A stretch of 30,306 nucleotides of DNA from a virus, in the IMG/VR virus record IMGVR_UViG_3300025009_001418, positions 1 to 30,306 of that record, one strand, 5' to 3'. This document shows positions 7,242 through 21,855 of this stretch, one piece after another (within the stretch, counting starts at the first letter, position 1; each line of letters begins with the position of its first letter). The notes under the pieces are model-generated. The model did not search any database and was not told where the DNA came from. It saw nothing but the letters and a program-made list of their open reading frames with translations. The position numbers and the translations under genes are program-made.

Positions 7242-8219
7242 ATGGAAACCAAGCAATATAAAATCTTTAGCGAATTACAGACTTTAGACACCAACTACCA
7301 CAAGAGCAGTCTTGAGAAAATTGACGGCCTAAAGCGTTCGCAGTTTGAAATTGTCCGAATGTGTGAGTTTTACTCCGACTCCCGTTATCTTGAACAAAAC
7401 AAAGACGCTACCGGCAAATCAGGGGTGAATTTAGACAAGTTAGGCCGACCCCGACCTTTTTATAATATCGTTAATTATCGGGTTGCCCTAGCTAAAACCG
7501 CCACCGACTTGGATATTAAGGACATTCAAATCATCTCGGACAATCCTAAGTATCAAGTCCACTCAATGCTCTTGAACCGCGAGGCTTACGAGTGGATGAA
7601 AGAAAGCGAGTTTTCCCGAACCTTCAACCAAATGGGTAGCACTAGACCTAAATACGGTGGCTACTTACTCAAAAAGACCACTCCTAAAGGTAAGTTAAAG
7701 ATCGAGGTTGTCCGTTGGACCAATGTTTTCACCGACCAGAATGATATTTTGGGCGGTCCGATTGTAGAACATCATTACCTCTCACCAGTTGCCCTAAAGA
7801 AGAAAGACGATGTTTGGGATAATGTAACCGAGGTGTTAAAAGCCAACCGGAAGCTCAAAGACAAGACTGATATTGATGTTTATGAAATCACCGGCGAATT
7901 CCCTGTCCAGGTCTTCAAGGACTCGCAAAATGAGGACTCCACCGAAGCCGATGAGTTTACTTTCACTCTCCAGCGATACTTTGTCGCCGAGGTAGACGGT
8001 AAGCACTTCCTGATGAGTGCTGATGAAATCCCCGGGGTGATGGAGGATTATTACGAATACTTAGCTTGGGAAGATAACGGTTACGGGTTGGGCCGAGGAG
8101 TGATTGAGGACTCTGAAGAAGCTCAAGTCTGGACTAACGACTCAGTGATTAACGAGTCTATCGCTATGTCCTTGGCCGGTCGGGTAGGAATCAAAACCAC
8201 CTCCAAAACTGGGAAATAA
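7242..8219 (+). CDS. Portal protein, N-terminal part (reading frame broken)
   Basis: 325 residues, then TAA at 8217-8219. Position directly after terL and the segment GYGLGRGVIEDSEEAQ followed by VWTNDSVINESIAMSLAGR (near the end) are typical of phage portal proteins, which form the dodecameric ring at the capsid vertex through which DNA enters and leaves. The sequence continues in the +1 frame from 8221 (ILEHDHGKIYELEKD), so this is one gene of about 600 codons with a frameshift. The +1 frame is open only from 8188 (TAG at 8185-8187), so the shift must lie between 8188 and 8219, which contains two A4 runs, GGG and AAA. Either an indel (biological or assembly) or recoding. Confidence 0.8.
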   Translation: METKQYKIFSELQTLDTNYHKSSLEKIDGLKRSQFEIVRMCEFYSDSRYLEQNKDATGKSGVNLDKLGRPRPFYNIVNYRVALAKTATDLDIKDIQIISDNPKYQVHSMLLNREAYEWMKESEFSRTFNQMGSTRPKYGGYLLKKTTPKGKLKIEVVRWTNVFTDQNDILGGPIVEHHYLSPVALKKKDDVWDNVTEVLKANRKLKDKTDIDVYEITGEFPVQVFKDSQNEDSTEADEFTFTLQRYFVAEVDGKHFLMSADEIPGVMEDYYEYLAWEDNGYGLGRGVIEDSEEAQVWTNDSVINESIAMSLAGRVGIKTTSKTGK

Positions 8220-8220
8220 T

Positions 8221-9051
8221 ATCTTAGAACACGACCACGGCAAGATTTACGAGCTGGAGAAGGATTCGGATATCAACTCATTTAACTTGGCTCCCTCGGC
8301 TTTGGGTCAGTATCAAAACCAGATTGAAAAATGGCGAACCCAAGCAGATAATGTTACCTCGTCCTTTAATGCTATCACTGGTGAACAGCCACCGTCCGGC
8401 ACCCCTTACTCGCAAACCGCCCTCTTAAATCAAGTCGCTACCAAGCCCTTTGACTACAAACGAGAGGAGTGGGGTATTCACTTGACCAAAATCTTTGATA
8501 AATGGGTTATCCCTTACTTAATCAAGAAGATTAAAGCCGAACATATCCTTGTCACCGAGTTCTCCGATGAAGAGTTGGAGAAGATTGACGAGAGCTTTGC
8601 AGTGTACAGCTCCAACCAAGAAATTAAGAAGAAAATGATTGAGGGCATTTTAGTCTCCCCGGAAGAGCAGGAGATGATGATAGACGGGTATAAAACATCA
8701 ATCAGAAAGAATGGCAAACGGCGGTTTATTAAGATCCCTGAGGATTTCTTCAAGGAAATTGAGTGTAAGGTAACAGTCATTACCACTGGTGAGCAGATGA
8801 ATAAGGCCGTCATCCTCCAGTCCTTGTCGGAGATTATGCGGGCAGTGATTGCCTCGTTTAACCCCAACACCGGCGAGTTTGGTGTCTTAGCCGACCCCGT
8901 CCTCTCTAAGGTGTTTAATCAAATTGTCGAGCTTAGTGGGTCTGGCATCTCACCTGTTTCATTAGGTAAGGGGGCTAGGCCAACCAAGCAGGTTCCCCAG
9001 CAAACCACCACCCCAGTCCCAACCCCAGAGTCCGCTCCCTTAGCTGCCTAA
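8221..9051 (+). CDS. Portal protein, C-terminal part (+1 frame)
   Basis: 277 residues continuing the portal gene without a credible start of its own; the first possible start is TTG 8287. ILEHDHGKIYELEKDSD and the following helical stretch look like the stem and crown region of portals; the end is Pro/Thr/Gln-rich (QVPQQTTTPVPTPESAP), a usual flexible tail. With the first part, total length (about 600) fits the family. Function requires fusion to the upstream frame; alone it should not assemble. Confidence 0.75.
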   Translation: MLEHDHGKIYELEKDSDINSFNLAPSALGQYQNQIEKWRTQADNVTSSFNAITGEQPPSGTPYSQTALLNQVATKPFDYKREEWGIHLTKIFDKWVIPYLIKKIKAEHILVTEFSDEELEKIDESFAVYSSNQEIKKKMIEGILVSPEEQEMMIDGYKTSIRKNGKRRFIKIPEDFFKEIECKVTVITTGEQMNKAVILQSLSEIMRAVIASFNPNTGEFGVLADPVLSKVFNQIVELSGSGISPVSLGKGARPTKQVPQQTTTPVPTPESAPLAA

Positions 9052-9052
9052 T

Positions 9053-9274
9053 ATGAACGCTACTCTCCAACAATTCTACGACAACGAGGGCCAACGGGAA
9101 GCCGTTAAAGTCTTTATGGTTGAGACCTTAAAGGAAATGACGGTTGAGCTGGCTTTTGAGGGTAAATCAGTGGTCGGTATCCCCGAAACCAGCAAGTTAA
9201 TTGACCGCACCTTTGACAGACTAGAGGAGTTGTATGGTAAAATAGAGAAACCAATTATCAATAATCCACGCTAA
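9053..9274 (+). CDS. Small helical protein between portal and scaffold
   Basis: 73 residues, starting one base after the portal stop with no Shine-Dalgarno site. Predicted mostly helical and charged (EAVKVFMVETLKEMTVELA; KLIDRTFDRLEELYGKIEK). No known family recognised. Small genes at this place often encode head-assembly accessory or packaging-related proteins, but this is position-based inference. Confidence 0.6.
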   Translation: MNATLQQFYDNEGQREAVKVFMVETLKEMTVELAFEGKSVVGIPETSKLIDRTFDRLEELYGKIEKPIINNPR

Positions 9275-9276
9275 AT

Positions 9277-9423
9277 ATGGCTAAAGTTAAAAAAATTAAA
9301 GTGAAAAAGGAAGTCGAGCCGGAAGAAGTTGTCCCGATGGACGCTAATGAGCGCCGGCGCTATGACATCCTTAAAAGAAACGCCCAACGGCGTTTAGATA
9401 AGGAAGCCGCCAAGAGACGGTAA
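9277..9423 (+). CDS. Small basic Lys/Arg-rich protein
   Basis: 48 residues from ATG 9277, 2 nt after the previous stop. The N-terminus is Lys-rich (MAKVKKIKVKKEV), the middle is acidic, and the C-terminus is Arg-rich (NERRRYDILKRNAQRRLDKE, ending AAKRR). It is likely helical and nucleic-acid binding by charge. A weak extended -10-like TGGTAAAAT at 9235-9243, with TTGACA 19 bp upstream, lies in the previous gene. Function unknown. Confidence 0.5.
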   Translation: MAKVKKIKVKKEVEPEEVVPMDANERRRYDILKRNAQRRLDKEAAKRR

Positions 9424-9512
9424 AACCGCGAGGGCTTTAGGACAGGGCCACCTCATATAAAAAGCCAGTCCATGAGAAGGAAAACTCTCTAAACCGATTA
9501 ACCATAGCTTAT

Positions 9513-10007
9513 ATGGATGATGACAATAAGGACCTCAACCTTTCAAACGAGACAGACGGGGAGACTGTTGAAACTCCTGAGACCGAGGAGGAAACTCCAG
9601 CGGTAGATGTCGAACAACTGCAGGCTACAAACAAGAAATTGTTTGAGCGTGCAAAGAAGGCCGAAGCTGATTTAAAAGCGTTGAAAGACGCGGACAAGTC
9701 GAAACCAGCCGAAGCACCTTCTCCACAGCTTAGCGTGGAAGAGGCCGTCCTTTTAGTAGGCGGTATGCCCGAGGAACTCCTAGGGGAACTGAAGGCCGTC
9801 GCCCAAGTTAGAAAGGTCTCTCTCATTAAAGCTCAAACTGATCCTATCTTCGTTGCGGTGAAGGATAAATTTGACAAAAATAAGAAGCAAGAAGAAGCCA
9901 GCTTGCCTGCTTCTCGCAGTTCATCGGGGGTGAAGCCTAAAAAAGACTTCAAGACTCCAGGTTTAACTCGAGAAGAACACAAGGCAATGGTGAAAGATCT
10001 ATCTTAA
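9513..10007 (+). CDS. Scaffolding-like protein
   Basis: 164 residues. Residues 1-35 are very acidic (Asp/Glu/Thr). Residues 33-65 form a predicted coiled coil (VEQLQATNKKLFERAKKAEA), then a Pro/Ala linker. The C-terminus is basic and Lys-rich (KPKKDFKTPGLTREEHKAMV). An acidic coiled-coil protein directly before the major capsid gene with a basic C-terminal tail is the standard arrangement of phage scaffolds, which guide capsid assembly and leave before or during packaging. No sequence motif proves it. The 89-nt gap upstream holds no gene. Confidence 0.65.
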   Translation: MDDDNKDLNLSNETDGETVETPETEEETPAVDVEQLQATNKKLFERAKKAEADLKALKDADKSKPAEAPSPQLSVEEAVLLVGGMPEELLGELKAVAQVRKVSLIKAQTDPIFVAVKDKFDKNKKQEEASLPASRSSSGVKPKKDFKTPGLTREEHKAMVKDLS

Positions 10008-10045
10008 CCTAGTGGGGGAGCCATTATTAAATAGCAAAAAACGAT

Positions 10046-10972
10046 ATGGCATTCCCAACTGGCACAGAGTCCAGCGTTTCGCTGGCAAGCTATATTCCAG
10101 AGATTTGGGGTGAGCGCATTAACGAGTTCTATCGGGCCCGTTTGGTCGCCGCTCCTTTCTTTACCGACCGAAGTGATGAGTTAGCAGGTGGTGGTGATAC
10201 GCTTTACACTCCTAATACAACGGAGTTCACCGCTACTGCTAAGTCTCTTGGTGTCGCCGTGGCCTTAAACAGCCCGACTGATACTAAGGTCACTTTGACG
10301 GTAAGTAACTGGTACGAATCTTCATTCGCTATCGAAGATAACGATGCGGCTCAAATGAAGCGCTCATACTCGGTTATGGAACGCTACGCCAAGAACTGCG
10401 GTTACGCTATCGCGAAGACCCTTGATACAGCGATTGTTGCTTTGTTTGCCGACTTTAGCAATTCTGTTGGCTCATCAATCACCAACCTCCAAGACTCGGA
10501 CATTCGCTCGGCGTTTGCTTACCTTGAGGCCAATAATGTTGACTCAATGGAAGCGGCCTGGTTCTTCCACCCAACCGTTTTCTGGCGACAAATTCAGCGG
10601 ATTGACAAGTTCTCTCTCGCTGTTAACTCACCAGTTAATGACCCGACGGCTAAGCGCCCGGCTGGTTACTTGTACGGTCAGCCCGTATATTTGACCACCC
10701 AGATTGCTTACCACGTCCCGTCTGGTACGGCTGGTCGCAACAATGCCTTTGTTCACGCTGACGCTATTCACTGGGCAACCTCTCCCTTGGGAGCTGGTGG
10801 CTCAGAGGGAGCGATGGTTGGTTCAAGTGGCATTCGGGTTCAGTCCAACTACATTCCGGAGTATCTCTCAACGGTTACGACCGCTGACATCCTCTACGGT
10901 GTAGTGGAAAACCGTGATGTTGCCGGAGTCCGTGTTTTGACTCCAGCGACCACTGACAGTAACAATCTTTAA
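10046..10972 (+). CDS. Major capsid protein
   Basis: 308 residues. Features typical of a HK97-fold coat protein: an N-terminal arm (PEIWGERINEFYRARLVAAP), a beta-rich E-loop-like region, a spine helix (YAKNCGYAIAKTLDTAIVAL) and a P-domain with SDIRSAFAYLEANNVDS and a following FFHPTVFWRQI. Position after the scaffold-like gene supports this. About 420 copies would be needed for a T=7 shell, so this should be among the most highly expressed genes. No Shine-Dalgarno site is visible before ATG 10046 (AAAAAACGAT). The 3' flank contains a strong RNA structure. Confidence 0.85.
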   Translation: MAFPTGTESSVSLASYIPEIWGERINEFYRARLVAAPFFTDRSDELAGGGDTLYTPNTTEFTATAKSLGVAVALNSPTDTKVTLTVSNWYESSFAIEDNDAAQMKRSYSVMERYAKNCGYAIAKTLDTAIVALFADFSNSVGSSITNLQDSDIRSAFAYLEANNVDSMEAAWFFHPTVFWRQIQRIDKFSLAVNSPVNDPTAKRPAGYLYGQPVYLTTQIAYHVPSGTAGRNNAFVHADAIHWATSPLGAGGSEGAMVGSSGIRVQSNYIPEYLSTVTTADILYGVVENRDVAGVRVLTPATTDSNNL

Positions 10973-11036
10973 TCTTTAAGATTGTTGTGGGGTCTGGTCT
11001 CCAAAGTTCCTTACCCCACAACTTTGGAAGCAATCT
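10971..11036 (+). promoter_or_regulatory. Interleaved RNA stems between capsid gene and cassette
   Basis: Nested and competing pairings. The outer stem is AGATTG (10979-10984) with CAATCT (11031-11036). Stem A is GTTGTGGGG (10984-10992) with CCCCACAAC (11014-11022). Stem B is CCAAAGTT (11001-11008) with AACTTTGG (11020-11027). A and B cross each other and share three bases, so they form either a pseudoknot or alternative states. AATCTTTAAGATT at 10971-10983 is a further small palindrome. There is no T-tract, so this is not a plain terminator. It may lower expression of the downstream genes relative to the capsid gene. Confidence 0.5.
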
Positions 11037-11177
11037 ATGAAAATCAACACAAAACCGAATAAAAAGACCGTATTCATTGACCCCAATCCGGTGAGGGTTA
11101 GGGAGATGTTAGATGCTAATGGTAATGTTATTGACTTTAGGACCAAGCAGATTATCCGTAAAGCCGACCAATCATGA
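11037..11177 (+). CDS. Small protein (46 residues) leading the glycan cassette
   Basis: Starts one base after the RNA structure and ends in TGA overlapping the next ATG (ATGA). The sequence is polar and beta-like: VFIDPNPVRVREMLDANGNV followed by IDFRTKQIIRK. No family recognised. A capsid-associated role is possible from its place after the coat gene, but it is also coupled to the glycosyltransferase genes. Confidence 0.5.
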   Translation: MKINTKPNKKTVFIDPNPVRVREMLDANGNVIDFRTKQIIRKADQS

Positions 11178-12235
11178 GGGTTTATTTCGTGAGCAGTGGT
11201 AGCTTTGGGTGCTATATCGTCAGAAGTCTCCTACCTTTAGTGGCTAATGGTTGGGACGGCGACCACACCTCCATCCATCCCCTAGAGAAAACTCCCGAGA
11301 ATAAGGCTTTAGCCGCCCAAAATGCTGATATTGTGGTCTTCCATCGTCCTGAAGACCCCCGGAAACTCGATTTAGCCCGCCTCCTCAAGAAACAAGGCAA
11401 GAAAATCGTGATGGACAATGACGACACCTACAAAGACAAGGGGTCGATTAAACTAAACACCTACTTCAACGAAGAAAGAGTGCGTAAAGGGTTGGGTGAT
11501 GTGAATAAAATTGTTGACCAGTTTGTGATTGAGGCTGATTTAGTCACAACAACCACCCCATTCTTGGCTGATGAGTATAAAAAGCTGAATAAAGAAGTCG
11601 TGGTTTTACCTAATTTCATCGACCCGTTCTATTTTGACGAGCCGTTACGAAACGAGACTGATGTGGTGCGGATAGGCATCACCGGCTCCCTTGGGATGTC
11701 GTCTGATCTAGATGTTTTATCCCCAATCATCAAGCATTACGAGAAAGACCCGCGGGTTAAGATAGTGTTCTTCTCGCTTCCGGCCAACCGTGACTCCAAT
11801 CCCATCATCACTCGGGCTTACGAGAACGAATACAACTTCCTAGACTCGGTGGATGTCGAGTGGCATCCGTTGGTCAACGCCGACCTCTACTACGACAAGC
11901 TCAACTCGCTTAAACTAGACTTAATGGTTATTCCTCGGGCTGATAACTACTTCAATCGAGCTAAGAGCAACCTGAAGTTTCTTGAATCATCAATGTTCAA
12001 AATCCCATGTGTGTGTCAAGGCTTCGCTGATGGTCTAAGCCCTTATCAAAAAGACGCTGACCACCTAGTGCTCGTAAACGACAACACCCAATGGATACCA
12101 GAGATTGAAAAGCTGATTAAAGACAAGGAGAAACGCCGAGAGATGGGCCGAAAAGCTAAGCAGTATGTGCTTGAGAATTACGATATCAACAATAACGCCC
12201 ACCTTTGGGAAGAAGCCTATTCTAAACTGCTATGA
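11174..12235 (+). CDS. GT-B fold glycosyltransferase (GT4-like)
   Basis: 353 residues. Two Rossmann-like halves: the N-terminal half has DIVVFHRPEDPRKL and IVMDNDDTYKD; the C-terminal half has LPNFIDPFYFD, IGITGSLG (donor-domain start), then KSNLKFLESSMFKIPCVCQG, the acidic/donor-binding region of GT4-type enzymes, and a closing EMGRKAKQYVLENYD helix typical of GT4 C-termini. It transfers a sugar from a nucleotide donor; donor and acceptor are unknown. No membrane segment. Opens the cassette through a 4-nt ATGA overlap with the small gene before it, and overlaps the next gene the same way. Confidence 0.8.
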   Translation: MRVYFVSSGSFGCYIVRSLLPLVANGWDGDHTSIHPLEKTPENKALAAQNADIVVFHRPEDPRKLDLARLLKKQGKKIVMDNDDTYKDKGSIKLNTYFNEERVRKGLGDVNKIVDQFVIEADLVTTTTPFLADEYKKLNKEVVVLPNFIDPFYFDEPLRNETDVVRIGITGSLGMSSDLDVLSPIIKHYEKDPRVKIVFFSLPANRDSNPIITRAYENEYNFLDSVDVEWHPLVNADLYYDKLNSLKLDLMVIPRADNYFNRAKSNLKFLESSMFKIPCVCQGFADGLSPYQKDADHLVLVNDNTQWIPEIEKLIKDKEKRREMGRKAKQYVLENYDINNNAHLWEEAYSKLL

Positions 12236-12783
12236 TTCCGATGTGGAAATTAGGGGGCCGGTTGGGTAATCAGATGTTCCAATATGCCTATTTGTTTGCC
12301 CAAGTTAAGCGAGGAGAAATCCCAGACATCTATCTCCAAAGTGAGGAGTATTTTGAGGATTACAACCGAGAGATAAAGGCCATTTTTAGTACTGGAATCG
12401 GCCACCTAGACCAAGTGTCAATCCATGTCCGCCGGGGAGACTATGTGAATAATCCTTTCTACACTGATTTGTTTGAAAGTGGTTACTATGAAGAAGCGAT
12501 GGAGATGTTCCCAGATGCCAACTTTTTGGTTTTCTCTGATGATATTGCTTGGTGCAAGAGACAACCTCTGTTTGAAGAGTGTGAGTTCTCAGAGGGGAAT
12601 GACGAAGTGACGGACTTAAACTTAATGGCCTCTTGTCAGCACAACATCATCGCTAACTCCTCGTTCTCGTGGTGGGCGGCCTATCTCAACCCCAATCCCA
12701 ACAAGAAAGTCATCGCTCCGGCCCTGTGGCATCCAGACGGATTAGAGCGGACAGTATTACCAGCTAATTGGATAACTATATGA
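12232..12783 (+). CDS. GT11-family alpha-1,2-fucosyltransferase-like protein (short)
   Basis: 183 residues. All GT11 hallmarks are present: GGRLGNQMFQYAY (8-20), the donor-binding HVRRGDY (65-71) and ANSSFSWWAAYLN (141-153), followed by KKVIAPALWHPD. GT11 enzymes use GDP-L-fucose and bind the GDP moiety through the HxRRGDY motif. Usual length is near 290; this version lacks most of the segment between the first and second motifs, so acceptor specificity may differ. The neighbouring gene makes a GDP-L-galactose-type donor, a close analogue of GDP-fucose, which may be the real donor. ATGA overlaps at both ends. Confidence 0.85.
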   Translation: MIPMWKLGGRLGNQMFQYAYLFAQVKRGEIPDIYLQSEEYFEDYNREIKAIFSTGIGHLDQVSIHVRRGDYVNNPFYTDLFESGYYEEAMEMFPDANFLVFSDDIAWCKRQPLFEECEFSEGNDEVTDLNLMASCQHNIIANSSFSWWAAYLNPNPNKKVIAPALWHPDGLERTVLPANWITI

Positions 12784-13679
12784 AATGCTTAGTCATAGGC
12801 GGGTCGGGATTTATCGGCCACAACCTAGTTAAACGCCTAAAAGCCGAGGGTTGGTGGGTTAAGGTGGTGGACTTGAAGCATTGTCCATACGAAAACAGTC
12901 CGGCTGATGAGGTGGTGATTGCTGACGCTTCAGGGTGGGAGTTAGACCAACACTATGACCGAATTTATCAATTAGCCGCTGATATGGGCGGCGCGGGGTT
13001 TATCTTTACCGGCGATAATGATGCCGACATTATGCACAACTCCGCCTCGATTAACCTTAATATCGCCTCCCAAGCCGTTAAAATGGGCTGTGGTAAGCTC
13101 TTTTACTCCTCCTCGGTGTGTGTCTACCCCGATGAGCATTCAGGCCGTGAGGACGACCCTGGTGTCCCCCCAACCGCTTATGGTTGGGAGAAGATGTTTA
13201 GTGAGCAACTCTACCTCTCTTATGCCAAGAACCACGGTTTGGATGTTAAGATTGCTCGTTTCCACAATACCTATGGACCTTACGGCACTTATGACGGAGG
13301 ACGAGAGAAAGCCCCGGCCGCTCTTTGTCGTAAAGTGATTCAATCTGACAAAATAGAAGTGTGGGGTGATGGAGAGCAAGTTAGACCGTTTATCTACATT
13401 GACGACCTTTTAGACGGGATTGAGATTTTGATGAACTCTGATCTGACCGGCCCGGTGAACATCGGCCCCAATGAAACTGTCTCAATTAAAGATTTAGTGA
13501 CTAAAATCAGCTTTATTGAGGACAAGGAGATTGAAATCAAGTTTATCCCCGGCCCGACCGGAGGGAAAGTGCGGAATACTGACAACGAACTGATTAAAAG
13601 TCTGGGCTTTAGGCCTAAAGTTTCCCTCCAACAGGGGCTAACTAAGACTTATTGGTGGATAAAGTCTCAATATGATTAG
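12780..13679 (+). CDS. GDP-mannose 3,5-epimerase
   Basis: 299 residues from ATG 12780, overlapping the previous stop. Extended SDR fold: GGSGFIG (7-13) for NAD, AADMGGAGFI, YSSSVCVYP (109-117), then Tyr134xxxLys138. The strings RFHNTYGPYGTYDGGREKAP, WGDGEQVRPFIYIDD and TYWWIKSQ closely follow plant and bacterial GDP-mannose 3,5-epimerase. The two catalytic residues known from the plant enzyme (Cys in SSSxCVYP, Lys in GGREKAP) are present as Cys114 and Lys177. Product would be GDP-L-galactose (and GDP-L-gulose). It is shorter than the plant protein (about 377), mainly at the N-terminus. No other GDP-mannose pathway gene is in the window, so GDP-mannose would come from the host. Confidence 0.85.
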   Translation: MKCLVIGGSGFIGHNLVKRLKAEGWWVKVVDLKHCPYENSPADEVVIADASGWELDQHYDRIYQLAADMGGAGFIFTGDNDADIMHNSASINLNIASQAVKMGCGKLFYSSSVCVYPDEHSGREDDPGVPPTAYGWEKMFSEQLYLSYAKNHGLDVKIARFHNTYGPYGTYDGGREKAPAALCRKVIQSDKIEVWGDGEQVRPFIYIDDLLDGIEILMNSDLTGPVNIGPNETVSIKDLVTKISFIEDKEIEIKFIPGPTGGKVRNTDNELIKSLGFRPKVSLQQGLTKTYWWIKSQYD

Positions 13680-14253
13680 TATCGCTATCCCCTTCTACAA
13701 TATGCCGAACGCAGCCTACTTTTTAGGTCGGTGCTTGGCTAGTATTGAGAGTCAAACTTATAAGGATTATGAGATAGTTATTACTATGGAGGGCAAGATG
13801 GCCGAGAATACCAACGCGGCGATTAAAAAATGCAAGGGTGAGATAATTAAAATCCTCTATATGGATGATTACCTGGCTCACGATGACGCTCTCCAAGAGA
13901 TTGTGGACAATTTTAAGGGCGGTTGGTTAGTCACGGGTTGTCTCCACGATGAAATGGTGGTTGGCAGACCGCATTTGCCGTACTATAATGAGGATATTGT
14001 TAAAGGTGAGAACACTATCGGTTCCCCCTCGGTGTTAACTTTTGAAAACCAAGACCCTTTATTGTTTGACGAGATGATGACTTGGATGTTGGATTGCGAC
14101 TATTATACTAGGCTTCACTCTCGCTATGGTCCGCCGATCATCCTTAACGACTTAAATGTCGTAATCGGGATAAGTGAACACCAAACCACCCACCAGCTAG
14201 ACGACCAAACCAAACAAGACGAACAACTTTATTTAATTAAAAAACATTTATGA
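13672..14253 (+). CDS. GT2-like glycosyltransferase
   Basis: 193 residues. SIAIPFYNM at residues 3-11, SIESQTYKDYEIVI (24-37) and the metal-binding MDDY (64-67) mark a GT-A fold. The N-terminal nucleotide-binding half is clear; the C-terminal acceptor half is short, but TWMLDCDYYTRL matches the catalytic-base region of GT2 proteins in position. No membrane segment. Overlaps its neighbours by 8 nt and 4 nt. Confidence 0.75.
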   Translation: MISIAIPFYNMPNAAYFLGRCLASIESQTYKDYEIVITMEGKMAENTNAAIKKCKGEIIKILYMDDYLAHDDALQEIVDNFKGGWLVTGCLHDEMVVGRPHLPYYNEDIVKGENTIGSPSVLTFENQDPLLFDEMMTWMLDCDYYTRLHSRYGPPIILNDLNVVIGISEHQTTHQLDDQTKQDEQLYLIKKHL

Positions 14254-15314
14254 TTCCAGTCTGCAAACCCTCGTTTGATGACCAAACTAAAAAAGAGCTT
14301 TTAGAAGTGCTTGATAGCGGATGGGTAGGCCAAGGGCCGAAAGTTAAAGAGTTTGAAGAGAAGTTTGCCGAGTATGTCGGGGCTAAGTATGCCGTAGCGA
14401 CCAACTCCTGCACTTCGGCCTTAGACTTGTGCTTGAAAGTCTACGACATTAAGGACGGAGAGCTGATTACCACCCCGATGACCTTTGTATCAGACGCGAT
14501 TGTGGGCGAATGGAACGGAATGGATGTTACCTTTGCTGATATAGACCCAAGAACCCTTTGTATAGACCCCGAAGCGGTCAAAATTACCCCTAAAACACGA
14601 GCAATCATTGCCGTTGACTCCCACGGCAGGTTGGCTGATATACCGGCCTTAAAACGCAAGTTTGGCGGTTTGATTATTGAGGATGCCGCTCACGCTATGT
14701 TTACTCCTGGAGTAGGGCAAGGGGATATAACGGTCTATAGTTTTCAAGCCGTTAAAACGATGCCTATTTTTGACGGCGGGATGATTACCACTAATGACGA
14801 GGAGATTGCCAAAAAACTTCGCACTTTGACTTGGTTGGGGATTGAAAAGACTACTTACGACCGAGTGGGCAAGAAAGGTTACACCTGGGACTACGATATT
14901 ACTCATTTGGGGATTAAAGCTTATATGACCGATGTCCAGGCGGTGATTGGTTTGGGTCAATTAAGACGCTTGGATGAGATGAACGCCAGGAGAAGAGAGA
15001 TTGCTGACCTTTATAACCAAGCTTTTAAGGACATTCCGGGCTTTGTGGCCCCGGAATACTCTCATACTGTCCAATACTTTACCCCAGAGTTTGATAATCG
15101 TGATGGTTTGAGTGAGTTTTTGGCTGAAAATGACATTTCAACCAGCGTCCACTTCAAACCATTGTCTGAACTGACTTACTGGAAGAAGGCTGCTAAAAAT
15201 CCCCTACCTAAAACCGAGGTGTGGCGGAGATTATTATCACTGCCTGTCTACAGCCACCTGACCGACAGCGACCAACTTTACATTATCAGTAAGGTAAAGG
15301 AATTTTATGCCTAA
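14250..15314 (+). CDS. DegT/DnrJ/EryC1/StrS-family sugar aminotransferase
   Basis: 354 residues. PLP-dependent fold type I. DSGWVGQGPKVKEFEEKFA (22-40) is the family signature, IIEDAAHA holds Asp145 for the PLP nitrogen, and YSFQAVKTMPIFDGGM holds Lys169 as the Schiff-base lysine. These enzymes add an amino group to keto-sugar nucleotides, giving amino or N-acylamino sugars. The keto-sugar supplier is not obvious here; the RmlD-like neighbour or host enzymes could provide it. A role as a PLP-dependent dehydratase is less likely because the lysine is kept. ATGA overlap upstream, 8-nt overlap downstream. Confidence 0.9.
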   Translation: MIPVCKPSFDDQTKKELLEVLDSGWVGQGPKVKEFEEKFAEYVGAKYAVATNSCTSALDLCLKVYDIKDGELITTPMTFVSDAIVGEWNGMDVTFADIDPRTLCIDPEAVKITPKTRAIIAVDSHGRLADIPALKRKFGGLIIEDAAHAMFTPGVGQGDITVYSFQAVKTMPIFDGGMITTNDEEIAKKLRTLTWLGIEKTTYDRVGKKGYTWDYDITHLGIKAYMTDVQAVIGLGQLRRLDEMNARRREIADLYNQAFKDIPGFVAPEYSHTVQYFTPEFDNRDGLSEFLAENDISTSVHFKPLSELTYWKKAAKNPLPKTEVWRRLLSLPVYSHLTDSDQLYIISKVKEFYA

Positions 15315-15927
15315 AATCTTAATTACTGGTGGAACTGGCAGATTAGCAGCCGAATTAAAGAAACACCTTGAAGGTGAATATGTTGGGATAGAGGATTGGG
15401 ACATCACTTACCCTATTCCTGACGGTCAGTATGACCTAATATTGCACATGGGCGCTTACACCGATGTTAAAAAGGCCGAAAAGGAGCAAAATAAATGCTT
15501 CCAAACCAACACTTTTGGCACTTTCCAGTTAGTAATGAAGTACCTTGACACTCCGTTTGTATATATCTCAACCGAGTATGCCAAGAATCCAATGGGGGCT
15601 TATGCTTTGACTAAACAATTAGGTGAGGAAGTGGTAAAAACCCATCCCAATCACTTAATCTTAAGGACTTCTTTCAAACCTAACCCATGGCCTTTTCCAA
15701 TGGCGTATATTAACCAATGGACTCAAGGCGACTATGTCGATGTAATTGCTAAATTACTGGCGGAGCGAATTAAATCCTGGGACAAAAAATCAGCCTTTGA
15801 ATATCTAGGAACCGGACGGAAAACCATGTACGAATTGGCCCGTAAAACAAGACCAGATGTTGAGCCTAACTATGTAGAGGATTATATTAAGAAAACCGGT
15901 GCGCCCATCCCTTTAGACTATGCTTAA
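15307..15927 (+). CDS. RmlD-like NAD(P)-dependent sugar reductase (short SDR)
   Basis: 206 residues. GGTGRLA (8-14) is the nucleotide-binding glycine motif; HMGAYTDVKKAEKEQNKCFQ followed by TNTFGT is the RmlD/SDR pattern for cofactor and substrate; YISTEYA and GAYALTKQLGE hold the Thr/Ser and YxxxK catalytic residues. RmlD reduces dTDP-4-keto-rhamnose; this shorter relative (normal about 290) lacks part of the substrate domain, so the substrate is uncertain. One of few cassette genes with a Shine-Dalgarno-like AAAGGA before the ATG. It may pair with the aminotransferase in making a modified sugar donor. Confidence 0.75.
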   Translation: MPKILITGGTGRLAAELKKHLEGEYVGIEDWDITYPIPDGQYDLILHMGAYTDVKKAEKEQNKCFQTNTFGTFQLVMKYLDTPFVYISTEYAKNPMGAYALTKQLGEEVVKTHPNHLILRTSFKPNPWPFPMAYINQWTQGDYVDVIAKLLAERIKSWDKKSAFEYLGTGRKTMYELARKTRPDVEPNYVEDYIKKTGAPIPLDYA

Positions 15928-16498
15928 CCTTCCTCAGGTTACTTTAGTAACCGTTACTTCAGTGGACAAAGAAAACCACGAAGCGGCGTTAAGAATGAGT
16001 CAGGACGGGATAAAGTTTGGAGCGGTTAAACTCTTGGATCTAAACACTCACAGCATAGACGAATGGAACAAGGCGGTGATTAAAGAACTTCCTAAGCATA
16101 TTGACACCGAATTTGCACTGTTAATTCATGCCGATGGTTATATCATCCACCCCGAACTATGGGACAACGACTGGTTGAATTATGACTTCATCGGCGCGCC
16201 GTGGCCCCTACCGAGAGATGACTACTCTTACCGGGATGAAGAAGGCGGGTTGGTAAGGGTGGGTAACAGCGTGTCCCTTAGAAGTAAAAAACTAATGGAC
16301 TTGGCGTCGACTAGAAAATGGCAGTCCTATTTCGGCAACACTAATGAGGATGGATTTATTTGTTGCCACAACCGACTCTGGCTTGAGTCTAAGGGTTGTA
16401 ACTTCGCTCCCCTTGAAGCGGCAATCCACTTCTCCAAAGAACACATTATCGATGAGAACCGTGATATAATGAACACGTTCTGTTTTCATTCTTTATGA
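15920..16498 (+). CDS. DUF5672 glycosyltransferase-like protein
   Basis: 192 residues. ALLIHADGYIIHPELW, YDFIGAPWPLP, VRVGNSVSLRSKKLMDL and NTNEDGFICCHNR follow the DUF5672 pattern, a GT-A-like family found in glycan clusters. The HADGY string takes the place of a DxD metal site, and the NED motif is the likely catalytic acid region. Usual DUF5672 proteins are of similar or slightly larger size. Overlaps both neighbours; the homing endonuclease gene begins on its stop codon. Confidence 0.75.
   Translation: MLNLPQVTLVTVTSVDKENHEAALRMSQDGIKFGAVKLLDLNTHSIDEWNKAVIKELPKHIDTEFALLIHADGYIIHPELWDNDWLNYDFIGAPWPLPRDDYSYRDEEGGLVRVGNSVSLRSKKLMDLASTRKWQSYFGNTNEDGFICCHNRLWLESKGCNFAPLEAAIHFSKEHIIDENRDIMNTFCFHSL
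16462..16470 (+). promoter_or_regulatory. Extended -10-like TGATATAAT before the HNH-AP2 gene
   Basis: TGA followed by a perfect TATAAT (16465-16470) inside the end of the DUF5672 gene. Predicted start about 16477, 18 nt before ATG 16495. No good -35. It may give the endonuclease its own transcript, but could be chance in coding DNA. Confidence 0.3.
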
Positions 16499-16959
16499 AA
16501 TATATCTCGCTAACAAAAGAAAAAAGAGCAATCGTAGATAACGGGGATTTTGCTCGCATAAACGAGTTGAACTGGTGTTTTTCAAATGGTTACGCGGCTA
16601 AGAAAACCAGAGGTAATAAAAACCTATTTATGCACACTCTTATTATGAGTGGCCTTGAGGGTATGAAGATAGACCACAAGAATGGCGATGGGCTGGATAA
16701 TAGAAGGTCAAATCTAAGATTTTGTACTCAACAACAAAATACTTTTAATCAAAAGTTGAGCAAAGCAAATACCTCTGGCTATAAAGGGGTGTGTTACTTC
16801 CCGTATGGTAAAAGGTTAAAAAGATGGGTGTCAAAGATAAATATTGATGGCAAGCAGAAGCATTTGGGGTATTTCTCAACAGCAAAAGAAGCGGCACTAG
16901 CTTACAATAAGGGAGCTAAGAAATATTTTGGCAGTTTTGCTAAGTTAAATAATGTATGA
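16495..16959 (+). CDS. HNH-AP2 homing endonuclease
   Basis: 154 residues. The HNH core is MHTLIM..MKIDHKNGDGLDNRRSNLR (His47, Asp60, His61, Asn68), with an AP2 DNA-binding domain at 93-150 (NTSGYKGV, WVSKINIDGKQKHLGYFSTA, AYNKGAKKYFG). Such free-standing phage endonucleases insert between genes and spread by cutting cognate sites that lack them. The gene is visibly more A/T-rich than its neighbours, consistent with a separate origin. It is joined to both neighbours by ATGA overlaps, as if it had always been part of the operon. Confidence 0.9.
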   Translation: MKYISLTKEKRAIVDNGDFARINELNWCFSNGYAAKKTRGNKNLFMHTLIMSGLEGMKIDHKNGDGLDNRRSNLRFCTQQQNTFNQKLSKANTSGYKGVCYFPYGKRLKRWVSKINIDGKQKHLGYFSTAKEAALAYNKGAKKYFGSFAKLNNV

Positions 16960-17660
16960 TTGCTGGCGTTTTTCATCAAGGGTCAGGTTTAGGCAACCAG
17001 CTCCACCGTTACACCGCCACGCGGTGCTTAGCTCTTGAGAAGGGTTACGATTTCGGGATGATTTACCCCGAGAACTTTAAGGGGACATTTATGAAACTTG
17101 ATATGGGTGTGCCGGTGGAGAACTTGGCCCACGAATTTAATGAAACCAAGGTCTTTAAGGACGGCCACGATGTTAGACCTTATGACCTTAGAATTAAAGA
17201 GGTAGAGGACTTTACTTTAATAGACGGAGAGTTTCAAGACCAGCGTTACTTTACTACTCTGGATAAGAGTTGGTTTGAGGTTGAACCCCTTGATTTACCA
17301 GACGACCTTTGTATTATCAATTTCCGCGGTGGGGAATATGTTGGAGTATCAGACCTCTTTCTTCCCAAGTCTTATTGGGATAAAGCAATCGCAATGATGC
17401 CGGGGATGAGGTTTGAAGTCCACACTGACGACCCTCACACCGCCAGACAATTCTTCCCCTATCCGATTATCCACGACATCTCTCTAAATTGGCGGTCTAT
17501 CCGTTATGCGAAAAACCTGATTATCTCCAACTCCAGCTTCGCTATCCTCCCAGCTTTAATGAGTGGGGCTAGAGTGCTGGCCCCTAAGTTTTGGGCCGGA
17601 TATAACAAAGGCCTCTGGCAACTGCCCCAAAACGAATACCCTCAATTTACCTATCTATGA
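16956..17660 (+). CDS. GT11-like (fucosyltransferase-type) glycosyltransferase
   Basis: 234 residues. GSGLGNQLHRYTATRCLALE (9-28) is the GT11 first motif; INFRGGEY (121-128) matches the donor-binding HxRRGDY with substitutions; IISNSSFAILPALMSGARVL (189-208) and APKFWA match the last motif. The changes (Phe for His, GGE for RGD) suggest a divergent donor or lost activity; the first Arg (Arg124) is kept. Second GT11-type gene of the cassette, only distantly similar to that at 12232. Overlaps its neighbours by 4 nt. Confidence 0.7.
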   Translation: MIAGVFHQGSGLGNQLHRYTATRCLALEKGYDFGMIYPENFKGTFMKLDMGVPVENLAHEFNETKVFKDGHDVRPYDLRIKEVEDFTLIDGEFQDQRYFTTLDKSWFEVEPLDLPDDLCIINFRGGEYVGVSDLFLPKSYWDKAIAMMPGMRFEVHTDDPHTARQFFPYPIIHDISLNWRSIRYAKNLIISNSSFAILPALMSGARVLAPKFWAGYNKGLWQLPQNEYPQFTYL

Positions 17661-18238
17661 AATTTATCCTCTCGCGCTACAATCACGACATCTCGTGGCT
17701 AAAAGAATACAGCGATGACTATGTCCTTTATGACCGAAGTGAAGAACCTTTGGAGGGGGCAATAGTAGTCCCAAATATCGGCAGCGATTGGTATGACAAA
17801 CTGACTTATATCATAGACAATTACGACAATCTCCCCGAAGTCGCGGTGTATACTAAGGCCAACTTGTTTAAATACATCACTAAAGAGGAGTTTGACCTGG
17901 TTAAAGGCAATAAGACTTTCACTCCTTTGTTAACCCAGCATCACGAGGTTTACGAGCCGGTGTGTCGGTATGTGGACGGGATGTATGAGGAGATAAACAA
18001 CCGGTGGTATTTGGGGCCACATCCGGCCAGACACGCCGTGGAAATGATGAGGTTATTAGGTATTGACCACCAAGAGTATGTCCGGTTTGCGCCGGGGTCT
18101 AATTACATTTTGCCGAAAGAAACCATCCTCAAGCACCCCAAAGAGCTGTATATTAAGTTAAGGTCTTACTTAGACTGGGTAATCTACCCCGGCGAAGCGC
18201 AAATTATGGAACGAGGCGCTTATAATTTATGGAAATAA
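17657..18238 (+). CDS. DUF3431-like protein, glycan-cluster associated
   Basis: 193 residues. FILSRYNHDISWLKEYSDDY and VPNIGSDWYDKLTYIIDNYD followed by NLPEVAVYTKANLF follow the layout of DUF3431 proteins (RYxxDxxWL, VPNxGxExxxYLxYIxxxYDxLP), which occur with glycosyltransferases and are thought to be GT-like. Biochemical role unknown. It ends with the conserved-looking YPGEAQIMERGAYNLWK. Overlaps upstream by 4 nt and downstream by 10 nt. Confidence 0.65.
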   Translation: MKFILSRYNHDISWLKEYSDDYVLYDRSEEPLEGAIVVPNIGSDWYDKLTYIIDNYDNLPEVAVYTKANLFKYITKEEFDLVKGNKTFTPLLTQHHEVYEPVCRYVDGMYEEINNRWYLGPHPARHAVEMMRLLGIDHQEYVRFAPGSNYILPKETILKHPKELYIKLRSYLDWVIYPGEAQIMERGAYNLWK

Positions 18239-18984
18239 TCACCCTAAATCATAATCGTCCTGACTTTATCGAGCTTCAGCTTAATTCCCTGAAGAAACAT
18301 TTAACCGACTTCAATTACACGGTGTTTGATAGCTCTCAAGGTGATTTAATAGCCAAGGAGTGTGAGCAATTAGGAGTGGAGTGTATCCCGATTGTTGGGG
18401 ATCGGCGATTTGACGAACCTAGTTGTAAAGTTGCTTCCCTCCTAACTGAGATGTGGAAACTGGTCCCCCGTCAGGGTTTGGTTGTTTATTTAGACTACGA
18501 TATGTTCTTAATGAACCAGCTCCCTGATATGACGGGTTATGATTGGGCGTTTGTCCCTCAACTTAGACCTTTGATTACCTATCCCTGGACGGGGTTGATG
18601 ATGTTTAATATGGACACCCTTCACCCTGAAGATATGAACTGGAGGGTGGCCTCGGAATTAGGCGGAGATGTTGGAGGGTTTAATCACTTCTATCTTAAAA
18701 AACACCATCCTAAAGTTTTAGAGCTTGAGATGTGGACGCTGGTAGATGATGAGGAATATAGTTTTAACGGCGCACATACTGGAGTTTTCCACAAGAATTA
18801 TGCTAAAATGAGACAGTTGGTTAAAGATTTTCCGCATCCTTATTCGGTGGATGTTTTTAAAACCAAAGACCAGCCATTTGATGACTACTTTATTTTTCAT
18901 TACAAGAGCGCGAGTAATTATCCCCCTTTCGCGACACCCGAATATAACAAACTAAAAACCGAAGCCTTAATCAAGTTGCTATGA
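18229..18984 (+). CDS. GT-A fold glycosyltransferase-like protein
   Basis: 251 residues. IITLNHNRPDFIELQLNSLK (3-22) is a GT2-type start, and VVYLDYDMFL carries a DxD-type metal site (DYD). Then PWTGLMMFNMDTLHP, a tryptophan/glycine segment and ATPEYNKLKTEALIKLL at the end. It looks like a capsular-polysaccharide-type transferase with a small acceptor domain. No membrane segment. Donor and acceptor unknown. Overlaps the DUF3431 gene by 10 nt and the GT17 gene by 4 nt. Confidence 0.65.
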   Translation: MEIITLNHNRPDFIELQLNSLKKHLTDFNYTVFDSSQGDLIAKECEQLGVECIPIVGDRRFDEPSCKVASLLTEMWKLVPRQGLVVYLDYDMFLMNQLPDMTGYDWAFVPQLRPLITYPWTGLMMFNMDTLHPEDMNWRVASELGGDVGGFNHFYLKKHHPKVLELEMWTLVDDEEYSFNGAHTGVFHKNYAKMRQLVKDFPHPYSVDVFKTKDQPFDDYFIFHYKSASNYPPFATPEYNKLKTEALIKLL

Positions 18985-19793
18985 TTTATGACTGCTTTAA
19001 CTTTAATGCCGAATTAGATTTACTGGAGATTAGACTGGGAATACTCTATCCTTATGTGGATAAGTTTGTTTTGCTTGAATCTGCCATGACACACTCGGGA
19101 CTACCCAAACCTTTATACTATGAGTTAAACAAGGCCAGATTTAGCAAGTGGCAGGATAAAATAATTCATCACATCATCCCCAACCCCCCAATGACTAGAG
19201 CCGACTTCCCTTCAGACCATCCGGCACTAACCAGCTCTAAAGTACCGCCCGGGGAGTCCTCTTTTATGCGAGATTTCTTTGAAAAAGAGGCTGTCAAGGA
19301 TGCCTTAGTTGGGGTAAACGATACGGACTTAATCTTTGTCTCTGACTTAGATGAGATATGGAATCCGGAAATTCTTGACAAGATTCAACTTGATGGAGAG
19401 ATTTATCGCCCAGACCAATTATCATACTGTTATTTTTTGAATCTACGCACCAACGAAAAGGATAACTGGACGGGAACAATCGCCACTACTTATAAAACTA
19501 TCAAAGAAAACTGTTTGAATCACTTACGAGCCAAGGAAATAACCCCCTTCGTGAAAATAGAACGAGGGGGGTGGCACTTTACCAATATGGGCGGGGTTGA
19601 TTTGATTAAACAGAAATTTGAAAGTAACTCTCATCAAGAGATTAACACCAAATATAATAAGGCGATGTTGGTTAGTCGAATGGCTGATAAAACTGATTAT
19701 ATTGGTCGGGACTTCAAAATGTGGGTTGATGAGTTTGACCTCCCCAAGTATTTGTTAGATAATAGAGAGAAGTATGCTCACCTCTTCAATTAG
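18981..19793 (+). CDS. GT17-family glycosyltransferase
   Basis: 270 residues. The N-terminus MIYDCFNFNAELDLLEIRLG, then VDKFVLLESAMTHSGLPKPL and KIIHHIIPN, is the diagnostic start of GT17 (beta-1,4-mannosyl-glycoprotein beta-1,4-GlcNAc-transferase family). VSDLDEIWNPEI supplies the DxDE metal site, and GGWHFTNMGG is the expected late motif. Eukaryotic relatives add bisecting GlcNAc; bacterial and viral relatives occur in glycan clusters with unknown acceptors. Length is normal for the bacterial type. Overlaps the next gene by 20 nt. Confidence 0.85.
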   Translation: MIYDCFNFNAELDLLEIRLGILYPYVDKFVLLESAMTHSGLPKPLYYELNKARFSKWQDKIIHHIIPNPPMTRADFPSDHPALTSSKVPPGESSFMRDFFEKEAVKDALVGVNDTDLIFVSDLDEIWNPEILDKIQLDGEIYRPDQLSYCYFLNLRTNEKDNWTGTIATTYKTIKENCLNHLRAKEITPFVKIERGGWHFTNMGGVDLIKQKFESNSHQEINTKYNKAMLVSRMADKTDYIGRDFKMWVDEFDLPKYLLDNREKYAHLFN

Positions 19794-20496
19794 CATCATC
19801 GTCCCCTGCTACAAGTACGCCCACTACTTAAAGGAGTGTGTGGACTCTATCAAGGCCCAAACCTACTCCATCCACGAGATTATTGTGGTATCAGACGGCT
19901 CGCCGGATAATACGGTTGAGGTGTGCAAGGAATTGGGAGTGCGGTACATTGAGAAAGAAAACGGCGGTCTGTCCTCGGCTAGGAATGCCGGGATTAAAGA
20001 GGCTACCGGAGAATATCTAATGTGCCTGGACGCGGATGATAAGTTGGTCCCAGGGGCGATTGAGGAACACATGAGATTGATAGATGACGACAAGACCATC
20101 GCCCAGTGTGCTTTAATGGAGTTTGGTGAACGGCATGTTGTGATGACCCCAAACCCCAACACCAACCTTGAACGAATCCTCCAATCAAATACCATCTACT
20201 GCAACGCGGTCTTTAGTAAGCGGATGTGGGTCGAAAGTGGAGGGTTTGATGAAAGTGAAACCATGAGATTGGGGTTGGAAGACTGGGAGTTTTGGATTAG
20301 ATTGTTAGCGTTGGGTTGTCGGGTAAACACTTCCGACTTTATCGCCCTTAGGTATCGTTGCCACGAGGGACAAATGACCCAAGCCACCACTCATCCTAAT
20401 CACCAGAAGTTATACCAGTATATTTACGAGAAGCATCAAGATTTATATGATAAATTTAACTTAACAATAAGCGGCTATGATAACCCTAGACAATAA
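19774..20496 (+). CDS. GT2-family glycosyltransferase
   Basis: 240 residues. Canonical GT-A motifs: SIIVPCYKYAHYLKECVDSI (6-25), VVSDGSPDNT (38-47), NGGLSSARNAG (63-73), CLDADD (84-89) for metal and nucleotide, and GLEDWEFWIRL (167-177) with the catalytic acid Glu169 or Asp170. Complete and likely active, soluble and cytosolic. Last sugar gene of the cassette; the coiled-coil gene begins 20 nt before its stop. Confidence 0.9.
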   Translation: MLTSSISIIVPCYKYAHYLKECVDSIKAQTYSIHEIIVVSDGSPDNTVEVCKELGVRYIEKENGGLSSARNAGIKEATGEYLMCLDADDKLVPGAIEEHMRLIDDDKTIAQCALMEFGERHVVMTPNPNTNLERILQSNTIYCNAVFSKRMWVESGGFDESETMRLGLEDWEFWIRLLALGCRVNTSDFIALRYRCHEGQMTQATTHPNHQKLYQYIYEKHQDLYDKFNLTISGYDNPRQ

Positions 20497-20989
20497 AAAA
20501 CTACACGATTTAATCACCCTCAAAGACCAAGTGGTTGGCGAGGGGCGAGCCATGTCGCGCGAGATTGAGGAGATTGAACGCAAAATCCTCAAGTTTGAGA
20601 AAAAAGAACAAGTGATTACCGCTAAAGTGGTCCCACCGAAAGAATTGACTGATAAAGGGGAAGAGATTGTGAAAGAAGTAACCAAATTGAATGTTGAGCT
20701 GACCAAGTTAGCCAATCAAATCAACGAGTCTAAGTTGGCGGCGATCCCCGAGGATATGAAGACCGAACACTTGGCCTTGATGAAAAAGCGTGAGGAGTTG
20801 GAGCGCCAACGGAATAAGATTGCCCTTAAAGTGCAGAAAATCAAGGACAAAATCATTCCCTTGGTCCAAAAAGAGGTTAAGCCCCTGCTTAATCCTTACG
20901 ATGATATTGAGACCGCTCGGACCAAAGACGGCAAAGTAGTAATTGAGACTTTTAATCACATCGAGGAGTTCAAAAAGAAATTCAAGTAA
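20477..20989 (+). CDS. Coiled-coil protein at the end of the cassette
   Basis: 170 residues. Long helices with heptad spacing of Leu/Ile/Val, at residues 10-48 (LHDLITLKDQVVGEGRAMSR onward) and 60-130 (LTKLANQINESK; LMKKREELERQRNKIALKVQ). A short folded end follows (LLNPYDDIETARTKDGKVVI). It starts inside the GT2 gene, so it should be co-translated with the cassette, but its nature is that of a structural or assembly protein. No family recognised. Followed by a strong RNA structure. Confidence 0.65.
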   Translation: MITLDNKKLHDLITLKDQVVGEGRAMSREIEEIERKILKFEKKEQVITAKVVPPKELTDKGEEIVKEVTKLNVELTKLANQINESKLAAIPEDMKTEHLALMKKREELERQRNKIALKVQKIKDKIIPLVQKEVKPLLNPYDDIETARTKDGKVVIETFNHIEEFKKKFK

Positions 20990-21091: not shown

Positions 21092-21101
21092 CAAGCTACT
21101 T

Positions 21102-21133
21102 GAGTTGCGACAAGTTTATCACTAACGCAACTC
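21102..21133 (+). promoter_or_regulatory. 5'-leader hairpin (GAGTTG element, copy 2)
   Basis: GAGTTGCG (21102-21109) pairs perfectly with CGCAACTC (21126-21133) around a 16-nt loop, ending two bases before ATG 21136. Same left-arm bases and same distance to ATGG as the hairpin at 7221-7239, although loop and downstream gene differ. Confidence 0.5.
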
Positions 21134-21135
21134 TT

Positions 21136-21855
21136 ATGGTATTCAATGATACCTCGACCAAGCTTGGACTCATCCAAGACTGTGAGCAAACCATTTTCTC
21201 TAATTACGGCGACATCACTGGCAACACTAATCGCCTGTATGATTTTACCGCTCGGCTGAACCGAGCTTATGATAAGTTAGCCACCAAAATAATGTCCGTG
21301 GACGGCCGGTGGCAGTTTGATGATACTAATTACACCGACCTGCCGATTGGTAGCACCGCCTTGGTCTCCAGCCAACAAGACTACAGCTTCGATGTGGAGT
21401 TTTTAGATATTGTTAAAGTCCTTATCTTGGATAGCTCCGGTAATAAAATCCTCCTCCACCCAATAGACATCAACGACCCGATTGCCAAAGTTTATTTAAC
21501 AGATGTTACCTCTAACGGCGGTATCCCAACCTACTACGACAAGACCGGCGGGACAGTGATGCTCTACCCCACCCCTAACTATTCAATCGCCTCTGGCCTA
21601 ACGGTGCATTATCGCCGGAAACCATCCTATTTTACCCATACCGACACCACCAAATCAGTTGGTGTGCCGGCTATTTTCCATCGCTACCTCTCACTGGAGG
21701 CATCCTTAGACTATGCCTTGTCTAAATCCCTAGCGATTAAGAATGACTTGGCGGTAATGGTAAAAGAGATGGAGGCAATGATTGAAGATTGGTATTCCAA
21801 AAGGTCCAAAGATGAACAGAAGATTATTAAAAGTTATTATCGTTCTAATAGATAA
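21136..21855 (+). CDS. Head-tail connector / adaptor protein
   Basis: 239 residues from ATG 21136; a TTG at 21100 would place the leader hairpin inside the gene and is disfavoured. Pattern of adaptor-type proteins: helical N-terminus (TSTKLGLIQDCEQTIF), RLNRAYDKLATKIMSVDGRW, QQDYSFDVEFLDIVKV, GIPTYYDKTGG, VMLYPTPNY, and LTVHYRRKP followed by a C-terminal helical bundle. This layout (W-D after the first helices, YP-P-N, VHY-R) matches phage adaptors of the P22 gp4-like and related groups, which bind under the portal. First gene of the operon after the promoter. Confidence 0.7.
   Translation: MVFNDTSTKLGLIQDCEQTIFSNYGDITGNTNRLYDFTARLNRAYDKLATKIMSVDGRWQFDDTNYTDLPIGSTALVSSQQDYSFDVEFLDIVKVLILDSSGNKILLHPIDINDPIAKVYLTDVTSNGGIPTYYDKTGGTVMLYPTPNYSIASGLTVHYRRKPSYFTHTDTTKSVGVPAIFHRYLSLEASLDYALSKSLAIKNDLAVMVKEMEAMIEDWYSKRSKDEQKIIKSYYRSNR

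Follow-up and report, generated by a model that had tools for sequence, protein, structure and literature searches.

The 30,306-bp virus record IMGVR_UViG_3300025009_001418 of IMG/VR, hereafter the window (coordinates are positions within it), belongs to an uncultured phage. It carries, between the genes for the major capsid protein (MCP) and for a head-tail adaptor, 13 overlapping open reading frames (ORFs; c1 to c13, 11174-20496), 12 of which encode sugar enzymes or proteins resembling glycosyltransferases (GTs). Comparison with relatives revealed that this cassette is not a single unit, but a core phage GT gene, c1, followed by a variable island, and that c1 co-occurs with one particular capsid residue, Ser151. 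From this comparative evidence we consider it fairly probable that the phage glycosylates its own virions, with cytoplasmic c1 priming MCP Ser151 and the island enzymes lengthening or decorating the glycan. A wider proposition would be that a whole uncultured clade, probably short-tailed, obligately glycosylates Ser151, in a D-S-D/E motif, by means of a dedicated neighboring GT4, that the serine is lost wherever the GT is lost, and that in some lineages the island expands the sugar to a hypervariable oligosaccharide; we would give it about an even chance of being correct.

The evidence linking c1 to the capsid comes from relatives gathered from IMG/VR by MCP, by GT and later by divergent MCPs (individual loci are designated by L-numbers). 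In the first set, position 151 of the MCP is a serine in 73 of the 74 phages possessing the GT (GT+), and Ala, Leu and Ala in three MCP-ascertained loci lacking it (GT-; L044, L045 and L217), which retain the flanking genes c0, d1 and d2 and represent a clean empty site. Among the 70 MCP columns that are near-invariant in GT+ phages, 151 is the only one that differs in all three, and when matched triples of divergent GT+ phages were drawn, such a column appeared in 3 of 400 draws. The association was then tested out of sample on newly fetched, more divergent relatives: Ser151 is present in all 13 new GT+ phages and in none of the ten new GT- phages (nine Ala, one Thr; Fisher p 9e-7 ignoring phylogeny). 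Two further GT+ phages fetched later have the serine as well, and in total it is found in 94/95 GT+ versus 0/13 GT- phages. The 13 GT- phages form three independent clades, each corresponding to a GT loss and each lacking the serine; at the level of clades, 0.013-0.064 such columns are expected by chance and one was observed. By simple mutual information column 231 scores slightly above 151, probably inflated by a single large GT- clade, whereas the count of independent clades picks out 151. No GT-linked column was detected in the portal, adaptor, d1 or scaffold proteins, of which d1 and scaffold have few conserved columns.

The surroundings of Ser151 show a similar trend. Position 152 is acidic in 84/93 GT+ compared to 1/13 GT- phages, and Ser144 is present in 93/93 compared to 2/13, such that the neighboring positions appear to behave like a relaxed recognition site. 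The MCP is related to the capsid proteins of cyanophage A4 (9jwb, profile match 6e-22, Foldseek 1.8e-15) and Che8 (8e16, profile match 3e-7). In its structural model (pLDDT 73 overall, about 86-90 locally), Ser151 lies at the start of a helix that follows a long helix (residues 108-136), which, judged by its position, would be the spine helix of the HK97 fold. In the profile alignment with the A4 capsid protein (9jwb), Ser151 corresponds to about residue 158. A Gly/Ser loop near MCP residue 250 was also considered as an acceptor, but it is missing from several GT+ phages and was therefore rejected.

Gene order in the relatives separates a fixed from a variable part of the locus. The core-gene count was restricted to non-redundant loci that had been ascertained by MCP and extend at least 1 kb downstream (n=74); in 71 of them a c1 homologue adjoins the MCP gene. 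The GT gene and d1 are directly adjacent in 51 of the 70 loci holding both, and the remainder carry islands at that point. All islands share this single insertion point between GT and d1, and their size ranges from 0 to 8.3 kb (8.2 kb in the window phage, 8.3 kb in L223). The cassette that the original prediction described as one system is thus composed of a core GT and a variable island rather than forming a unit. In the MCP tree, the window's clade has an expanded island in every member in which the island region is visible, and separate expansions occurred in L218, L223/L185 and L146. Across 74 phages, distances in the MCP and GT trees are correlated with r=0.60 (0/999 permutations), a stronger correlation than that between MCP and adaptor (r=0.33). 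The relatives' 91 island ORFs include GT2, GT11 and GT17 enzymes, GDP-mannose dehydratase, DegT, FkbM methyltransferase, nucleotidyltransferase and PIG-L deacetylase, together with a few homing-type endonucleases, and two distant islands have additional GNAT and formyltransferase genes. No convincing membrane protein was found among the 91, a few DegT aminotransferases lying slightly above the hydropathy threshold. The island itself is portable and not specific to the capsid, because its enzymes also occur in other phages beside tail-fibre or replication genes.

The core enzyme c1, which we propose to be the priming enzyme, is predicted to adopt a GT-B fold with a GT4-like C-terminal donor domain. 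PF13524 scored above and PF00534 below the Pfam cut-off, and the AlphaFold2 model (pLDDT 90) matches GlgM (6tvp, 1.9e-13), PglA, BshA and PimA in the PDB (Foldseek, all E<1e-9). Exactly one copy, reading through, is present in each of 17 longer genomes, and 48 residues are invariant across 30 diverse members. Upstream, and ATGA-coupled to c1, lies the small ORF c0, found in the great majority of loci, GT+ and GT- alike; it carries the motif SPN..K.SERID..GNVIDPRTKQII, and some versions have a coiled-coil tail. Between c0 and the GT gene, HNH-like endonuclease ORFs were recognized by eye in L025 (3775), L029 (2005) and L047 (5065), which, with c8 in the window and an endonuclease VII gene in L012, suggests homing around the capsid-GT junction.

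In the window, the genes of the late block are, in order, terminase, portal, scaffold, MCP, c0, c1 to c13, d1 and d2 (Table 1). The limits given for the cassette in the original prediction were correct, as was its placement between capsid and connector genes (PHROG 267 upstream, the SU10-type adaptor PF24175 downstream), although 13 ORFs were counted instead of eleven. Nine GTs or GT-like proteins were found where at least seven had been claimed, and Pfam confirmed the epimerase, the DegT aminotransferase and the RmlD-like reductase; these make up the 12 sugar genes. The remaining gene, c8, encodes an HNH endonuclease, not a sugar enzyme, and is probably a selfish insertion. Coupling is tight, with overlaps of 4-20 bp at every junction, but calling all of them ATGA-type was a slight overstatement because the 4-bp ATGA arrangement is seen at 7 of the 13 junctions (c1/c2 to c13/d1). 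The cassette proteins are soluble, as had been noted: none has a membrane segment, the maximum 19-residue hydropathy being only 1.33.

Regarding individual enzymes, c3 appears by sequence to be of the GDP-mannose 3,5-epimerase type, since it is far nearer to that enzyme (2c59, 2.2e-68) than to other solved members of the short-chain dehydrogenase/reductase (SDR) superfamily (next family 1e-26). c5 is nearest to ArnB/PseC-type aminotransferases, and c9 has homologues in the islands of L004, L010 and L018. The weakest assignment is the putative GT c11, made from its context and from a homologue in another phage's cassette.

Table 1. Features of the proposed capsid-glycosylation locus in the window
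Feature	Positions	Strand	Description	Matches
MCP	10046..10972	+	Major capsid protein (HK97 fold), proposed acceptor	PHROG 267 4e-22
MCP Ser151 codon	10496..10498	+	Candidate glycosylation site (D150-S151-D/E152)	
c0	11037..11177	+	46-aa conserved small ORF between MCP and c1	No PHROG match
c1	11174..12235	+	Core capsid-linked GT4-like glycosyltransferase, predicted GT-B fold	PF13524 (Glyco_trans_1_2) 8e-6
c2	12232..12783	+	Compact GT11 (alpha-1,2-fucosyltransferase family)	PF01531 3.9e-30
c3	12780..13679	+	GDP-mannose 3,5-epimerase-type SDR (predicted)	Pfam Epimerase 3e-38; PDB 2c59 2.2e-68
c4	13672..14253	+	GT2 family	PF00535 4.4e-8
c5	14250..15314	+	DegT/ArnB/PseC-like sugar aminotransferase	PF01041 2e-89; PDB ArnB 1mdo 4.5e-48
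c6	15307..15927	+	Short RmlD-like reductase	PF04321 9.7e-17
c7	15920..16498	+	DUF5672 (GT-like)	PF18922 1.5e-13
c8	16495..16959	+	HNH/AP2 endonuclease	PF13392 (HNH_3) 2e-8; PF00847 (AP2)
c9	16956..17660	+	GT11-like glycosyltransferase	PHROG 2644 glycosyltransferase 4e-5; without Pfam match
c10	17657..18238	+	DUF3431 (GT-like)	PF11913 5.6e-9
c11	18229..18984	+	Putative GT-A protein	No family match; homologue in huge phage LR756502
c12	18981..19793	+	GT17 family	PF04724 1.1e-23
c13	19774..20496	+	GT2 family	PF00535 8.9e-37
d1	20477..20989	+	Coiled-coil protein; right border of island in relatives	
d2	21100..21855	+	SU10-type head-tail adaptor	PF24175 2.5e-10

One can envisage the following course of events. 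Late in infection, cytoplasmic c1 would add a first sugar to the MCP. The most likely site is Ser151, within the D-S-D/E turn where an A-domain helix begins. The glycan might end there in most relatives, which have the single GT only. In the window phage, the island enzymes (GT2, GT11, GT17, DUF5672 and others) would lengthen and branch it in some order. Some of the nucleotide sugars for this would come from c5 and c6 and from c3, which would convert GDP-mannose to GDP-L-galactose or GDP-L-gulose. GT11-family enzymes normally use GDP-L-fucose, and from what is known of these families c3 could provide them with GDP-L-galactose instead. The outcome would be an oligosaccharide on perhaps hundreds of capsid subunits, of possible benefit for shielding, stability or adsorption. 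The original prediction had already proposed cytoplasmic synthesis on a virion protein, likely the capsid; the lack of membrane genes in the cassette and in the relatives' islands, the lack of secretion genes in the 18 genomes searched (see below), the core GT beside the MCP gene and the GT-linked serine favor it.

The foremost alternative, which we regard as unlikely, is that the enzymes alter or mask the lipopolysaccharide (LPS), capsule or another glycan of the host surface and so block superinfection or the re-adsorption of progeny. This is the published reading of comparable GT clusters in cyanophages, jumbo phages and pelagimyophages (PMC7824862; PMC7029224). The hypervariable island content would fit a diversification of surfaces, and the nucleotide-sugar genes (DegT, GDP-mannose dehydratase, epimerase) resemble O-antigen genes. 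However, a Wzx/Wzy-dependent O-antigen or capsule locus is unsupported: flippase (PF01943), polyprenyl-phosphate sugar transferases (PF02397, PF00953) and Wzy polymerase (PF04932) were detected in 0/18 genomes while control genomes were positive, which extends the absence claimed by the original prediction for the cassette and is strong but not absolute because the records may be incomplete fragments. There are no membrane anchors either, the core GT is locked to a late capsid gene, often alone, and the GT-linked serine of the MCP would be left unexplained.

It is somewhat less likely still that a different virion protein, c0, d1, the adaptor or a tail fibre, is glycosylated in place of the capsid. 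The coupling of c0 to c1 in nearly all loci, and the location of similar cyanophage cassettes next to tail-fibre genes, would be in line with this, but GT- phages still have c0, d1 and d2, and the search for GT-linked conserved residues gave none in d1, d2, scaffold or portal (few columns being conserved in d1 and scaffold). In particular, c0 as the sole acceptor is disfavored because GT- phages keep it. Glycosylation of modified bases in the phage genome is very improbable. T4-type phage GTs do act on such bases, and PMC7029224 also states that phage GTs can do so, but DNA glycosylation is unsupported here, as a thymidylate-synthase-like hydroxymethylase (PF00303) was found in 0/18 genomes, with control genomes positive; in addition, the cassette sits in the virion block and its sugar set is far too elaborate. 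Equally improbable is a passive cargo, i.e. a selfish, endonuclease-driven island at a permissive spot with c1 as a chance neighbor of the MCP gene: HNH, NUMOD3 and endonuclease VII genes do occur in or near islands, but c1 is intact and strongly conserved as described above, the islands are sugar-specific, and the GT is lost together with Ser151.

Several observations nevertheless weigh against virion self-glycosylation as we propose it. All support is comparative and comes from metagenomic contigs, and just three independent GT losses are available. The GT- phages also show a higher average divergence, so that part of the signal could reflect lineage. The MCP model is of modest confidence (pLDDT 73). 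L183 (MCP 8220-9152, GT 10001-11047), the only GT+ exception, combines a full-length GT with Ala151. This GT is not clearly inactive, retaining 46 of the 48 invariant residues, though it has lost the Phe of a Y-F-N motif. In addition, homologous island genes in cyanomyoviruses and in a huge phage are not located beside capsid genes, and similar clusters have been interpreted in terms of the host surface, as cited above. As a separate observation, L183 has an extra ORF (about 9178-9566) after the MCP gene.

The possibility that the contig joins phage and host DNA, which the original prediction had named as a refutation, was not borne out. The cassette region is no assembly chimera because the MCP-cassette-adaptor join recurs in a sister contig (IMGVR_UViG_3300025154_001689, L135), which matches over 16.9 kb with zero mismatches and one small gap, located in the portal gene; the MCP-GT join was moreover found again in about 90 other syntenic contigs. 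The portal frame of the window is interrupted at 8205-8290 by a short homopolymer difference, probably an assembly error because the frame is intact in the sister contig and in relatives. Elsewhere in the window, a pentapeptide-repeat-like ORF (272-757) lies close to the left contig end, and a fibre-like ORF (29535-30305) is hydrophobic at its N-terminus and contains low-complexity repeats of the TSTTNATTTNL type, which resemble those of Patescibacteria proteins. From these repeats, the host may belong to that group. L055 and L056, two contigs from metagenome-assembled genomes that carry the minimal form, are short phage contigs and possibly mis-binned.

To our knowledge, experimental demonstrations of virion glycosylation are limited to a few phages, most of them mycobacteriophages. 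If our interpretation is correct, a widespread uncultured clade would possess it as a core trait coupled to the capsid; the acceptor residue could be named, and the phages that have lost both GT and serine would provide a built-in evolutionary control. Some phage GT clusters whose current annotation is that of host-surface auxiliary metabolic genes would then merit re-reading, and MCP plus GT4 would constitute a small two-gene system for site-specific glycosylation.

As summarized in PMC12363180 and PMC11256854, GTs encoded by the mycobacteriophages Che8 (gp110), Corndog (gp38) and Myrna modify the capsid or tail proteins of these phages (Freeman et al. 2023). The window phage, in which soluble GTs are encoded and secretion machinery was not detected, resembles Che8-type virion glycosylation by function, and its MCP is distantly related to the Che8 capsid. 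In Che8, however, three GT genes occupy the genome's 3′ end and are separated from the virion genes (a position that PMC11256854 gives for a close relative), and the examined stretch has no sugar-synthesis genes, whereas in the window phage the GT gene is tied to the MCP gene with an expandable island behind it. Che8 gp108-110 gave no significant match to c1 or other cassette proteins by blastp, phmmer or hidden Markov model searches. The chlorovirus PBCV-1 offers a parallel outside phages, in that its own enzymes N-glycosylate the MCP in the cytoplasm, with no host organelles involved and around a glycan core that chloroviruses share (PMC7826918). Cytoplasmic action on the MCP is established there and proposed here, but PBCV-1 is a eukaryotic virus with N-linked glycans and an unrelated capsid fold, and the systems are not homologous. 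Among phages with related capsids of the Saffermanviridae type (Pf-WMP3, cyanophage A4), the gene after the MCP gene of Pf-WMP3 encodes tail tubular protein A and not a GT.

The island, on the other hand, has close counterparts. Cyanomyoviruses (Synechococcus phages ACG-2014f and S-B43) carry soluble cassettes that comprise epimerases, aminotransferase, GT11, GT17, DUF5672 and methyltransferase, but these lie beside tail-fibre genes, are without a capsid-linked GT4 and are usually read as LPS modification. The huge phage LR756502 (L236) has a row of DegT, an RmlD-GT2 fusion, DUF5672, DUF3431, GT11 and GT17 homologous to c4-c7, c9, c10 and c12. Its genome, however, is 642 kb, the examined flanks hold replication genes with no capsid gene recognized, and a c1 homologue was not found in the examined stretch. 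The fusion joins RmlD-like and GT2 domains, homologous to c6 and c4, in one ORF (11389-12807), hinting at a shared pathway step. Thus, the island is of a known and portable kind, and what is new here is the capsid-locked GT with its co-conserved serine.

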